33,321 bases of DNA, taken from NCBI GenBank assembly GCA_947449135.1, contig CANFQO010000033.1:1-33321 (forward strand), written 5' to 3'. The stretch comes from Planctomycetaceae bacterium. Its GTDB lineage: Bacteria > Planctomycetota > Planctomycetia > Pirellulales > UBA1268. Both the position numbers and the translations under genes were made by a program. Of this stretch, positions 27,562 to 32,978 are shown one piece after another; the stretch's first letter is position 1, and each line of letters starts with the position of its first letter. The notes below the pieces were generated by a model. That model saw only the letters and a program-made list of their open reading frames with translations. It searched no databases and was not told the DNA's origin.

Positions 27562-28665
27562 TCACGGCCGCTCCATACCCTTGACTGTTGCGATGAGTTC
27601 CAACACGTTGTCCACCGGGGTCTGGGGCAGGATGCCGTGGCCAAGGTTGAAGATGTGGCCGGGGCGTCCGGCGGCCTGTGCCAGCACATGCTGCGTCTGG
27701 CGGCGGACCGTATCCCGGTCCGACAGCAACACCACGGGATCGAGGTTTCCTTGCACCGCGCGGTCATGGCCGACCAGCCGCCAGGCGTCGCCTAGTTCGA
27801 TCCGCCAGTCGATGCCGATGACGGAACCACCCGCCTCGGCCAACAGTGGCAGGAGCGAGGGATTCCCGGTGGCGAAGTGGATCACCGGGGCCCGCTGCGA
27901 CGCCTCATGCAGTGCGGTGCGGCTGTGTGGCAGCACGTAGCGACGATAGTCATTGGGAGAAAGGCAGCCGACCCAGCTGTCGAAGAGTTGTACCAGCTGC
28001 GCACCGGCCTCGAGTTGCGCCACGAGATAGCGGCTGACGGCGCGGGCGATCCGGTCCATCAGGTCATGCCAGGCTGACTCATGCCGGTACATGAGCGATT
28101 TTGTGTGGAGCCAGGCCTTGCTGGTGCCACCCTCGATGCAGTAACCAGCCAAGGTGAATGGTGCGCCCGCGAAGCCGATCACTGGCAGTGAATCGTCGAG
28201 CCCCGCGCGGGTGGCCCGCACGACATCCATCACATAGCCAAGTTGGTCGAGGTCTTCGAGTTCACGCAGCCGAGGCACGTCGGCCGGCTCACGGATCGGA
28301 TTGTGGATCACTGGCCCCTCTCCCGCGGTGAACTCCAGGTTCATCCCCATCGGTTCGAGGATCGGAAGTAGATCGCTAAAGATGATCGCCGCATCGACCC
28401 CGAGGCGATCGACCGTCGCGATCATCACCTCCGCAGCCAGTTGCGGGTTTTTCACCAGCCCCATGAAATCGACCTGCTCCCGCACACGGCGGTATTCGGG
28501 CAGGTAACGGCCCGCCTGACGCATCAGCCACACCGGTGTGCGTTCCACAGGTTCGCGGCGGCAGGCCCGCATGAGGAGGGCCTGCCCGCGCCGATCGGCT
28601 CGTGATGGGCTCTCGGCCATGGGCGGGGTGGGTGCAGAGGCTGGGGAACGGCGTGGATCTGACAT
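27562..28665 (-). CDS. hemE: Uroporphyrinogen decarboxylase
   Basis: The 367-residue cytoplasmic enzyme converts uroporphyrinogen III to coproporphyrinogen III by removing four carboxyl groups. The substrate-binding signature RTPVWLMRQAGRYLPEYR (about 42-59) and a later conserved GFAGAPFTLAGYCIEG are present; length is slightly above the usual 340-350 because of an N-terminal Pro/Ser/Ala-rich leader. Internal Met16 (28620) would shorten it but has no ribosome site. It is divergently placed to the CcsA-like and hemA genes, which form the rest of this small heme cluster. A long inverted repeat occupies the divergent region. Confidence 0.95.
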   Translation of the reverse strand: MSDPRRSPASAPTPPMAESPSRADRRGQALLMRACRREPVERTPVWLMRQAGRYLPEYRRVREQVDFMGLVKNPQLAAEVMIATVDRLGVDAAIIFSDLLPILEPMGMNLEFTAGEGPVIHNPIREPADVPRLRELEDLDQLGYVMDVVRATRAGLDDSLPVIGFAGAPFTLAGYCIEGGTSKAWLHTKSLMYRHESAWHDLMDRIARAVSRYLVAQLEAGAQLVQLFDSWVGCLSPNDYRRYVLPHSRTALHEASQRAPVIHFATGNPSLLPLLAEAGGSVIGIDWRIELGDAWRLVGHDRAVQGNLDPVVLLSDRDTVRRQTQHVLAQAAGRPGHIFNLGHGILPQTPVDNVLELIATVKGMERP

Positions 28666-28686
28666 GGAGTGCTCAAAACAAGAGGT

Positions 28687-28778
28687 GGAAAAATGAGGGA
28701 CGGGAGCGAATTTCGCATGTCAACAGTGAGGCATCGGACTCATACAGTAGCGAAATTCACTCCCGTCCCCATTTTTCC
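28687..28778. repeat. Long imperfect inverted repeat between hemE and ccsA-hemA
   Basis: The left arm (28687-28716) begins GGAAAAATG and ends CGAATTTCGC; the right arm (28750-28778) is its complement with one inserted base and one C/T change, so 28 of 30 bases pair. The 33-base loop contains a smaller TGAG/CTCA hairpin. The arm composition (AAAAATG-GGGACGGGAGTGAATTTC) resembles palindromes associated with REP/RAYT-type IS200-like elements. It sits beside the likely start sites of both divergent genes. Confidence 0.7.
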
Positions 28779-28785
28779 GGCAGAC

Positions 28786-28791
28786 TACAAT
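28786..28791 (+). promoter_or_regulatory. Candidate -10 box for ccsA-hemA
   Basis: TACAAT (28786-28791) lies 8 bases after the right arm of the inverted repeat and 27 bases before the ccsA-like start codon. A -35 hexamer is not recognisable: its expected position falls inside the repeat arm. The repeat may therefore supply or modify the upstream element. Confidence 0.35.
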
Positions 28792-28818: not shown

Positions 28819-29709
28819 ATGGTCGAATTCGTGTCGGGCATTTCCGTCGTCTGTTTCGCGGCAAGCTACGCCGTGGCGCTGCTTTGCGAGGCCTCACGGC
28901 TGTTGTTCCGATCGGGTGTGCGCGGGGCGGCCATGATCGCCTTCGCTGCCGCCGGGCTGGTGGCCCACACGCTGTTCCTTGGTTGGCGGGCAACCCACGA
29001 GCCGGCAGTTCCGCTCTCGAGTGCCTTCGACTGGTATCTGTTGGCGGCCTGGGTATTGGCGGGTGGCTACCTCTGGCTCACGATCGCCAACCCCCGCACG
29101 CCCGTGGGTCTGTTCATGCTGCCGGTCGTGCTGGGGCTCATCGGTGCGGCGCAGGTTTCCAGTCGGGCTCCCTTTCCGCAGAGTCCGGCGACACAGATCT
29201 GGGGAGCGATTCACGGCAGCTTCAATCTGGCGGCGAGCGTGGCCGTTGCCATTGGTGCCCTGGCGGGATGCCTGTGGTTGATTCAGGCCGGTAGGCTGGC
29301 TCGCAAGCAGCCGCCGCTACGGAGTTTCCGGCTGCCGAGCCTGGAACGTCTTGCCCACACCACCGAGCGCACCCTCGCGATTGCCGCCTGGACGGCTGCC
29401 GCCGGTTTCCTCTCAGGCATCATCCTCAACGCCGTCAACCGGCAGCGCGGACTGCTTGAGACGGTGCCGTGGAACGACCCCGTGGTGCTGAGGATGGCCG
29501 GGCTGGTGGTGTGGCTCGTGACGGCCGCGGCGGCGGCGCGGGTAACGAGCCGCCGCGCCGACGGCCCGCGGATTGCCAGCTGGCTGTCGCTGGTGAGCTT
29601 TGGCGTGCTCACGGCTTCGATTCTCTGGGGACTCTTCGGTGCGACGCGACATGGCGTGCCTCCGATCCAGCCTGCGGCCGCGCATGCCAACCCGGAGGCC
29701 ACGCCATGA
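28819..29709 (+). CDS. CcsA/HemX-type cytochrome assembly membrane protein
   Basis: The 296-residue integral membrane protein has about eight hydrophobic segments, in the pattern of the cytochrome c assembly (PF01578) family. The conserved stretch WGAIHGSFNLAASVAVAIGA, with a His suited to heme handling, is present, but the WWD-type motif of full CcsA/CcmF is absent, so HemX/YpjD-like is more precise. HemX-type genes often lie next to hemA, as here. I chose the ATG giving MVEFVSGISVVCF (AGGG about 7 bases upstream); the frame is open for 50 more codons across the inverted repeat, which cannot be coding. The stop overlaps the hemA start (ATGA), so the two are translated together. Confidence 0.8.
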   Translation: MVEFVSGISVVCFAASYAVALLCEASRLLFRSGVRGAAMIAFAAAGLVAHTLFLGWRATHEPAVPLSSAFDWYLLAAWVLAGGYLWLTIANPRTPVGLFMLPVVLGLIGAAQVSSRAPFPQSPATQIWGAIHGSFNLAASVAVAIGALAGCLWLIQAGRLARKQPPLRSFRLPSLERLAHTTERTLAIAAWTAAAGFLSGIILNAVNRQRGLLETVPWNDPVVLRMAGLVVWLVTAAAAARVTSRRADGPRIASWLSLVSFGVLTASILWGLFGATRHGVPPIQPAAAHANPEATP

Positions 29710-30983: not shown

Positions 30984-31006
30984 ACGATCGAGGTTCGATC
31001 CCGCAT

Positions 31007-31029
31007 GATGCCGTCGCTTCGACGGCATC
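31007..31029 (+). terminator. Hairpin terminator after hemA
   Basis: GATGCCGTCG (31007-31016) and CGACGGCATC (31020-31029) pair perfectly, with CTT between them (or 9 pairs around a 5-base loop). It lies 24 bases after the hemA stop and is followed only by GCTTTCCCC, so the T-run is weak. Its presence argues against the in-frame ATG at 31005 as the zwf start. Confidence 0.55.
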
Positions 31030-31079
31030 GCTTTCCCCCGGTTGTTGCCGCCAGCTTCTTCGTCCGGGACGTCATCTTC

Positions 31080-31085
31080 GAGGAG
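31080..31085 (+). promoter_or_regulatory. Ribosome-binding site that fixes the zwf start
   Basis: GAGGAG lies 9 bases before the GTG at 31095 and is the only good Shine-Dalgarno match near the possible zwf starts. It decides for the GTG over the ATG at 31005. Confidence 0.6.
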
Positions 31086-31094
31086 ACTCGCGTC

Positions 31095-32978
31095 GTGCCA
31101 TCTCATCTGCCAGCGGTCGGTGACGGAAGACAGCAGGCAAGCTCGGTCGCAGCATCTGGCGTGCTCGTCATCCTGGGTGCCTCCGGCGACCTGACCAAGC
31201 GGCTGCTCATGCCGGCGCTCTACAACCTCGCCTGCGACGGTCTCTTGCCCGAGGAGTTTGCCGTGGTCGGCATGGCTCGTGGCGATATGAACACGGAGGC
31301 ATTTCGCAGACAGCAGCGGCAGGAGATCGCCAAATTCAATACCCGGCAGACCTTCGACGCGGATCGCTGGGCATGGCTGGAGTCGCGGCTGCACTTCACC
31401 GCAGGCGAATTTGACGATGCCGCCGCCTACGGCCGGCTGCGGAAGTTGGTGGAGAGGGTGGGCGGGGGCACCGCCGCCGCAGACAACACGCTCCTCTATT
31501 TGGCGATTTCGCCCGATTTCTTCACCGTGGTCAATCAGCAGCTTGCCGCCGCTGGCTTCACCCGGCTCCCGGGACAGAAGCGGATCATCGTTGAAAAGCC
31601 GTTTGGCAAGGATCTGGCCTCGGCCCACGACTTGAACCAGTCGCTGCTCGCGCTCTGGAACGAGGACGAGATCTATCGCATCGACCATTATCTGGGCAAG
31701 GAAACGGTGCAGAACCTGCTGGCGTTTCGACTGGCCAACGACATGTTCGCCCCGCTCTGGAATGCCGCGCACATCGACCACATCCAGATCACCGCGACCG
31801 AGACGGTCGGCGTGGAGACCCGCGGCGAATATTACGACAAGACCGGCGTGGTTCGCGACATGCTGCAGAACCATCTGCTGCAGATGCTGGCCTACATCTG
31901 CATGGAGCCACCCGAGTCGCTCGATCCGAATGTCGTCCGCGACGCGAAGGCCCGGGTCTTGCAGGCGGTGCGGCTGTTTGGTCCTGGCGATGTCGCCCGC
32001 GACTGCGTCCGAGGACAGTATGGCCCGGGCGTGAAGGCGGACGGCACTCCAGCGGTTGGCTACCGGGAGGAGCCACACGTCGATCCGCAGTCGAATACGC
32101 CGACGTTCGCGGCCATCAAACTCCATCTCGACAACGAGCGGTGGGCAGGCATGCCGGTGTATCTGCGGAGCGGCAAGTCGCTCTGGAAGCGGGGCACCGA
32201 GATCGTCGTGCAGTTCAAGACCGCGGGCGAACCAAATCTGCTGATCTTCCACATCCAGCCCTTCCAGGCAGTCGAGATCCGCATGCAGGCCAAGCGACCC
32301 GGACCAGCGTTCCAGTTCCAGCGGGCTGGGATGCGGTTCGACTACGCCGAAACATTCGAGGCCTCCAGGGGCACGGGCTACGAAGTGCTGCTGTATGGCG
32401 CGCTCAACGGCGACCCGACGCTCTTCTCGCGGACCGATTTCGTGGAGGCCTCCTGGCGAATCATGCAGCCGGTCCTCGACACCTGGGCTGGAACGCCGGC
32501 CGCCGACTTCCCCAACTACCCAGCGGGCACATGGGGGCCACGTTCCGCCACCAGCCTGCTCGAACGGGATGGTCGCGGCTGGCACGAGTGTCTGAGCCGG
32601 GATGTGCTCGCCCGCAGCGAGTTCTTCGCCGCCGCGCCCGCCGTGCTGCTCAACACGCTCATGCTGGCCTTCCGACCGCTCGCAGTAGAGGCGGGGGCGA
32701 CGATCGTCGAACACGGAGAACGGAAGTGGGATCTCTACGTCGTCTGTCGCGGTGAGTTGGAGGCAGTGGGGCCGGCTGGCAATCGGCTGGGAGTCGTCAA
32801 GGCGGGGGAATGCTTTGGCGAGATGGCGCTGTTGTTGAATCAGCCCCGCAGTGCCACCGTCCGCGCGGTCTCTCCCTGCGATCTGCTCGTGCTCGACGCC
32901 GACGATTTCGGTCGGATCATCGCGGACTTCCCCCAGGCCGAGGCCGACCTGCGCCGAATCGCGACCAGCCGCCGGTAG
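31095..32978 (+). CDS. zwf: Glucose-6-phosphate dehydrogenase fused to cyclic-nucleotide-binding domain
   Basis: The 627-residue protein combines two domains. Residues about 20-495 are a complete glucose-6-phosphate dehydrogenase: NADP-binding GASGDLTKRL (28-37), EKPFGKDL and the catalytic signature RIDHYLGKE (Asp197, His198). The reaction is glucose 6-phosphate plus NADP to 6-phosphogluconolactone, the entry to the oxidative pentose phosphate pathway. Residues about 499-627 form a cNMP-binding domain. It starts CLSRDVLARSEFFAAAP, has GRELEAV-like beta strands and the phosphate-binding cassette FGEMALLLNQPRSATV (Phe574, Glu576, Arg585). The usual length is 480-510, so the extra domain is real and in frame. 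I chose GTG 31095 because GAGGAG lies 9 bases upstream; 31005 ATG would read through the hemA hairpin. No adenylate cyclase is in the window. Confidence 0.93.
   Translation: MPSHLPAVGDGRQQASSVAASGVLVILGASGDLTKRLLMPALYNLACDGLLPEEFAVVGMARGDMNTEAFRRQQRQEIAKFNTRQTFDADRWAWLESRLHFTAGEFDDAAAYGRLRKLVERVGGGTAAADNTLLYLAISPDFFTVVNQQLAAAGFTRLPGQKRIIVEKPFGKDLASAHDLNQSLLALWNEDEIYRIDHYLGKETVQNLLAFRLANDMFAPLWNAAHIDHIQITATETVGVETRGEYYDKTGVVRDMLQNHLLQMLAYICMEPPESLDPNVVRDAKARVLQAVRLFGPGDVARDCVRGQYGPGVKADGTPAVGYREEPHVDPQSNTPTFAAIKLHLDNERWAGMPVYLRSGKSLWKRGTEIVVQFKTAGEPNLLIFHIQPFQAVEIRMQAKRPGPAFQFQRAGMRFDYAETFEASRGTGYEVLLYGALNGDPTLFSRTDFVEASWRIMQPVLDTWAGTPAADFPNYPAGTWGPRSATSLLERDGRGWHECLSRDVLARSEFFAAAPAVLLNTLMLAFRPLAVEAGATIVEHGERKWDLYVVCRGELEAVGPAGNRLGVVKAGECFGEMALLLNQPRSATVRAVSPCDLLVLDADDFGRIIADFPQAEADLRRIATSRR

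Follow-up and report, generated by a model that had tools for sequence, protein, structure and literature searches.

A long palindrome lies between two divergent genes, hemE and a ccsA-like gene, in a Planctomycetaceae bacterium, and the question is where it came from and whether it serves the heme genes at its sides. The stretch of DNA analysed, hereafter the window, is 33,321 nucleotides long. In it, the left arm of the palindrome (28687-28716, + strand) runs from an outer GGAAAAATGAGGGACGGGAG to an inner CGAATTTCGC, with GGGACGGGAGCGAATTT as its core. It is followed by a 33-base loop (28717-28749) and by the right arm (28750-28778, - strand), an inverted copy of the left one. The arms pair throughout except for a single mismatched C at 28707 and a single bulged A at 28696. 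The inverted repeat had been noticed in a first-pass annotation, with which we agree on the arms, the 33-nt loop and the 28 matches. The 20-base arm core occurs twice in the window, against 0.02 occurrences expected. Taken as single-stranded DNA, 28680-28785 folds at -34.3 kcal/mol compared with -10.96 (sd 2.5) for shuffled sequences (z -9.3), none of the 200 shuffles folding as well. The - strand RNA toward hemE also folds better than shuffled sequence (z -7.2).

The left neighbour, hemE (27562-28665, - strand), encodes uroporphyrinogen decarboxylase (TIGR01464, 392 bits against a cut-off of 303), and the element starts 21 bases upstream of its ATG (28665) and may overlap the hemE leader, as the first-pass annotation stated. 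The right neighbour is a ccsA/ccsB-like cytochrome c biogenesis gene (28819-29709, + strand), whose ATG was placed at 28819 by comparison with relatives, in which the start is conserved. Its name is tentative because the match to the CcsB model (TIGR03144) is weak, at 31 bits for a cut-off of 188; a Pfam search returned no match for it. Beyond it on the + strand, a TIGR01035 match confirms the name of hemA. Seven bp separate the end of the right arm from TACAAT (28786-28791, + strand), the putative -10 box of ccsA, which lies outside the element and is conserved in the family with or without it. The earlier remark that the repeat abuts this box is thus correct as a statement about the sequence. 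Farther along the window, zwf (glucose-6-phosphate dehydrogenase, 31005-32978, + strand) carries a cyclic-nucleotide-binding domain at its C-terminus (PF00027, residues 561-640, 67.7 bits). The fusion looks unusual and might couple the supply of NADPH to a cyclic nucleotide.

The palindrome is very probably a non-autonomous, MITE/REPIN-like hairpin of a RAYT/TIRYT-type HUH (Y1) transposase; the hairpin would have been inserted once in an ancestor of the genus and is most likely passive now. A puzzling feature of heme genes thereby becomes an insertion that has a candidate enzyme, can be assigned to a dated branch and can be compared with empty sites.

Dispersed copies and the transposase linked to them

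The first-pass annotation made its reading of a mobile repeat hang on whether the arm has other copies in the genome. They are found, and the reading survives. Allowing up to two mismatches to the core and taking the reversed pattern in the same genome as control, the host genome (G000; 3.69 Mb in 169 contigs) yields 51 arm matches, and the control three. The counts are 92 in G003 (control 1), 39 in G002 (1), 16 in G001 (0) and 23 in G009 (2), while G004, with 3 (0), and G008, with 2 (3), are at background level. An arm census restricted to the fetched loci takes in 42 arms, fewer than the 51 of the host genome. Whole hairpins number 18 in the host, with none in the control; 17 are credible after removal of C2:27471, which lies inside an ORF. 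Some of these share a common loop at unrelated places of the genome, as seen from the identical positions over whole hairpin units in the pairs C28a/C28b (76/84), C28a/C37 (73/86), C28b/C37 (72/84) and C21a/C21b (58/69), and arm-loop-arm units have therefore been copied as wholes. The hemE-ccsA hairpin is thus supported as one copy of a dispersed, mobile-type repeat.

As far as approximate ORF calls show, the other copies in the host mostly adjoin the stop codons of genes that converge or run in the same direction; the hemE-ccsA copy and C28:9217 have divergent genes at their sides. The hairpin at C47:14898 (L058 1501-1565) seemingly lies within a 792-aa ORF, again an approximate call, and has a counterpart at the shared site in G003. 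In G055, of the same order, 40 hairpins of a related family occur (L092 and other places), with GACGGGAGTCGTTTC as arm and about 10 transposase matches. Viral contigs contain no exact match to the arm pattern. Among the matches listed for the arm string in the literature, all look unrelated by title, and the accessible portions of the literature on TIRYT, on REPIN/RAYT with gene conversion and on RAYT in Planctomycetes, which apart from the papers cited here are studies of Pseudomonas, hold no description of this hairpin family.

The host genome possesses a single Y1_Tnp gene, of 227 aa, which scores above the Pfam cut-off and reaches 60 bits with the NCBIfam RAYT (REP-associated) model, under its cut-off of 80. 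On its 3' side it carries the arm GGGGACGGGACTGAATTTCCG; on its 5' side the contig breaks off within the inner portion of the arm opposite, so that the second arm is partly seen. Its homologue in G003 (87% amino acid identity) has AAATGGGGACGGGAGCGAATTTC on both sides, oriented as the arms of the window. A RAYT-type gene with flanking copies, which the first-pass annotation had proposed to look for, is therefore at hand. Across the order, the inverted repeats flanking the transposase beat all 100 shuffles at 22 of the 24 loci tested (30 were fetched and 6 with partial genes left out), the exceptions being G039 and the host locus cut by the contig end, which ties with the shuffles. Transposase homologues are detected in 30 of 59 genomes. 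In G001 and G002 the arms are present, yet no homologue is detected; the arms can persist where the gene is gone, or an assembly gap may hide it. These two genomes, the partly seen second arm, the tie with the shuffles and the RAYT score under cut-off all count against the preferred explanation.

The motifs NHWHLVLW (HUH) and YVERNALRA (tyrosine) are intact in the proteins of G000, G003 and G009, and an extension of about 100 residues follows the Y1 domain. Pfam finds no HTH in this C-terminus up to E 10, a search in which the HMMER filters may hide weak ones. In plasmid sequences, distant homologues of the transposase turn up in 12 records, none of them reaching 60% identity. The genes of G003 and G009 (L110 1325-2005 and L111 1501-2178) share 91.9% of their DNA sequence, against 73% for the hemE region, a difference that points to transfer between genera and suggests that a RAYT-type gene moved horizontally between these two.

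The element would then be made of the transposase's terminal repeat in two inverted copies, with a short loop in place of the gene that the autonomous element carries. Acting in trans, the enzyme would recognise the single-stranded arms and cut them with its tyrosine, and the whole arm-loop-arm unit would be moved or copied.

Insertion at hemE-ccsA and the putative promoters around it

Thirty loci upstream of hemE were examined, the best matches from the 57 of 59 genomes with hemE. The element is present at four of the five loci of the genus (G000-G003), as an orthologous insertion, and the site is empty in G004. It is found at none of the 25 loci outside the genus, one of which ends at a contig edge and three others of which have no recognised adjacent ccsA start. 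Five hemE records (L191, L196, L201, L203 and L207), 80-88% identical to the hemE of the host yet labelled Candidatus Kuenenia or Acidimicrobiales, are probably mislabelled bins.

The loop is specific to this locus. A 61-base query spanning it finds long matches only at hemE-ccsA in G000, G001 (93% identity over 56 bases), G002 (89%) and G003 (85%), and has no match in G004. The other matches are a partial second one at the same G003 locus and one of 15 bases in G002 (E 0.76). The G003 locus is rearranged, its loop being inverted and a third arm present; a palindrome-driven rearrangement or a renewed insertion could lie behind this structure. In a tree built from three stretches of genes (5549 columns), G004 is the sister of the host with a support of 100. 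Since the loop is locus-specific and the tree places G004 beside the host, the most parsimonious history has a single ancestral insertion in the genus, followed by loss in this sister species. G004 has almost no arms anywhere, in an assembly that is 72% complete, and its spacer may represent old sequence or a deletion scar. According to this scenario, one unit would have entered the hemE-ccsA spacer of the genus ancestor just upstream of a pre-existing ccsA -10 box, to be inherited afterwards, rearranged in G003 and lost in G004.

A -10-like motif including TACAAT, defined by eye after the loci had been read, occurs 28-63 bases before the ATG at 24 of the 26 loci with an adjacent ccsA. As the element lies just upstream of this conserved box, the ccsA transcript probably starts downstream of it. 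On the other side, TATACT, a candidate -10 of hemE, is found at none of the five loci inside the genus, G004 included, compared with 18 of the 25 outside it. The hemE promoter thus seems to have changed in the genus, not clearly owing to the element: G004 is without the element and also without TATACT, so the change does not track the insertion. The TATACT of the outside loci lies near the hemE start (L060-L088, compared with 28640-28690 in the window), by reading 7 bases before the ATG in L067, a position that hints at leaderless hemE transcripts outside the genus.

A rather unlikely alternative, yet the one that survives best, keeps the same origin and adds a function: the copy would have been recruited as a bidirectional terminator or insulator between hemE and ccsA, or as a hairpin in the hemE leader. 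The terminator or insulator would be the most plausible recruited form, given an A-tract, a GC-rich stem and a T-tract on both strands; T5 tracts are read in the stem ends. Retention at four of five loci of the genus is consistent with recruitment, as are the many copies that adjoin stop codons, as terminator-like repeats would, and the absence of TATACT at all five genus loci. Furthermore, the loop is better conserved than third-codon positions. It is identical to that of G001, G002 and G003 at 30, 29 and 27 of 33 positions, respectively, compared with 0.62-0.66 at third-codon positions in three genes, hemE, ccsA and SNF2 (binomial P 0.0005, 0.003 and 0.03), in a test chosen post hoc with the data already seen. 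This hints at a constraint on the loop at hemE-ccsA, which allows recruitment and does not prove it. Against recruitment, loops at other shared sites range from 30/35 identical to not alignable, so that equally conserved loops exist elsewhere in the family, and the sister species dispenses with the element and has lost TATACT as well.

A scan for intrinsic terminators with a short-loop GC stem and a T run, limited to loops of 3-8, gives none, which also speaks against recruitment as a terminator. A promoter scan returns one - strand site whose second hexamer is the A-tract of an arm and which, by eye, is not kept in G001. Under the preferred explanation, the copy at hemE-ccsA would most likely be passive and form a strong hairpin, or a cruciform, on the upstream side of ccsA, and a mild insulating effect is possible.

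Arm variants at shared sites

The sites at which G000 and G003 share an element, as judged from the flanking genes, allow arm changes to be followed in place. Eleven single-stretch sites were compared (G000/G003: L002/L153, L009/L165, L023/L160, L025/L150, L027/L158, L045/L169, L050/L106, L053/L172, L054/L170, L055/L140 and L058/L156). Contig-split sites (L003; L020/L057, which are one site) and the transposase gene itself were left out, and the first of two G003 hairpins was counted at the L009 site. All 22 G003 arms at these sites carry AGCG, and those of G000 carry ACTG (12), AGTG (7), AGCG (2) or ACCG (1). Core differences between the two genomes amount to 13 and 19 at two positions and to 3 at the other 15. 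The arms next to the transposase are of the ACTG type in G000 and of the AGCG type in G003. At seven of the 11 G000 sites both arms display the same variant, and four are intermediate or mixed; the hemE-ccsA copy of G000 has AGCG/AGTG arms.

The flanking genes and some loops stayed orthologous while the arms changed, a concerted pattern that is hard to reconcile with independent mutation and fits conversion or repeated replacement better. The arms may, tentatively, be kept uniform within each genome by being rewritten in place toward the arm of its own transposase, the hemE-ccsA copy being one such site on a core metabolic promoter; the odds are somewhat against this reading. The four mixed sites and the comparison of two species count against it. 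Gene conversion among REPs has long been proposed, to judge from the title of a 1988 review. The conversion idea is thus not new, and its pairing with the transposase's own arms is testable. The spread of such repeats is called poorly understood in the accessible part of PMC8266576. If the concerted change holds, these genomes provide a natural setting in which to test how RAYT-type transposases maintain the match between themselves and their dispersed hairpins.

Placement among known mobile repeats

The first-pass annotation had likened the arms to REP palindromes mobilised by RAYT. The mobile-type repeat and the link to a RAYT-type gene stand; the REP label is corrected, because both the GTAG tag and the self-folding arm fail. 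A canonical GTAG-tagged REP/REPIN of the enterobacterial or pseudomonad type would account for an intergenic inverted doublet that forms a hairpin and is linked to a RAYT-like gene. Tested for its two defining features, this assignment becomes very improbable: no conserved GTAG stands beside the arms (the sole one, in the G000 loop, is GTAA in G001 and G002), and arms taken singly fold at best slightly better than shuffled sequences (14, 68 and 200 of the 200 shuffles match or surpass them). Least probable of all is an operator dyad, or a structured RNA, dedicated to the heme genes. The location between hemE and ccsA-hemA and the strong fold would speak for it. Against it, the same arms stand at many other loci, the site is empty at the 25 loci examined outside the genus, and the sole Rfam match, mir-577, reaches 39.8 bits for a gathering score of 100 and is of a kind that long hairpins may give.

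Classical MITEs are linked to DDE transposases. The element resembles them in having terminal repeats like those of the autonomous element with its own gene missing, whereas the enzyme linked here is an HUH (Y1) one. In CGTC-tagged REPs, according to the accessible text of Di Nocera et al. 2013 (PMC3733652), the CGTC tag is unpaired, the hairpin is short and no transposase is linked. The arm described here also contains CGTC (reverse strand, by reading), but inside a long stem, and a transposase is linked to it.

REPINs are non-autonomous hairpins of two inverted repeats with a variable spacer, according to the portions available of Bertels and Rainey 2011 (PMC3116915) and of PMC8049555. The element shares with them the inverted doublet, the variable spacer, the resulting hairpin, the non-autonomous state and the link to a single-copy RAYT-like gene; its arms, however, are not GTAG REPs. 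The copied units and the loss in G004 may be indirect signs of excision or duplication by the RAYT, as in REPINs. The text available of PMC8049555 further describes RAYTs as vertically inherited, unlike the gene of G003 and G009 with its signs of transfer between genera.

The closest likeness is to TIR repeats and TIRtrons. In the part of Di Nocera et al. 2013 that covers them, RAYT-like genes with long terminal inverted repeats (TIRYT, TIRtrons) are accompanied by dispersed TIR doublets, and a GGGGWSAS motif is common to part of the TIRs. Here too, the repeats at the sides of a RAYT-like gene are long inverted ones and not REPs, and moderately abundant copies are dispersed, many of them as doublets. 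The arm, with GGGGACGG, fits GGGGWSAS at 7 of 8 positions; elsewhere in the order, homologues carry GGGGACAG or GGGGTCAG. Quentin et al. 2018 (PMC6006769), in the sections available, place 20 of 26 TIRYT enzymes in subclass 2.1, which has a C-terminal HTH domain; the present enzyme has its extension of about 100 residues at that end, in which Pfam recognises no HTH up to E 10, with filters that may hide weak ones. Overall, the arms fit TIRYT-type terminal inverted repeats better than canonical REPs, and from its sequence the element would be a REPIN-like doublet of a TIR-type family, a novel addition to a known kind of mobile DNA.
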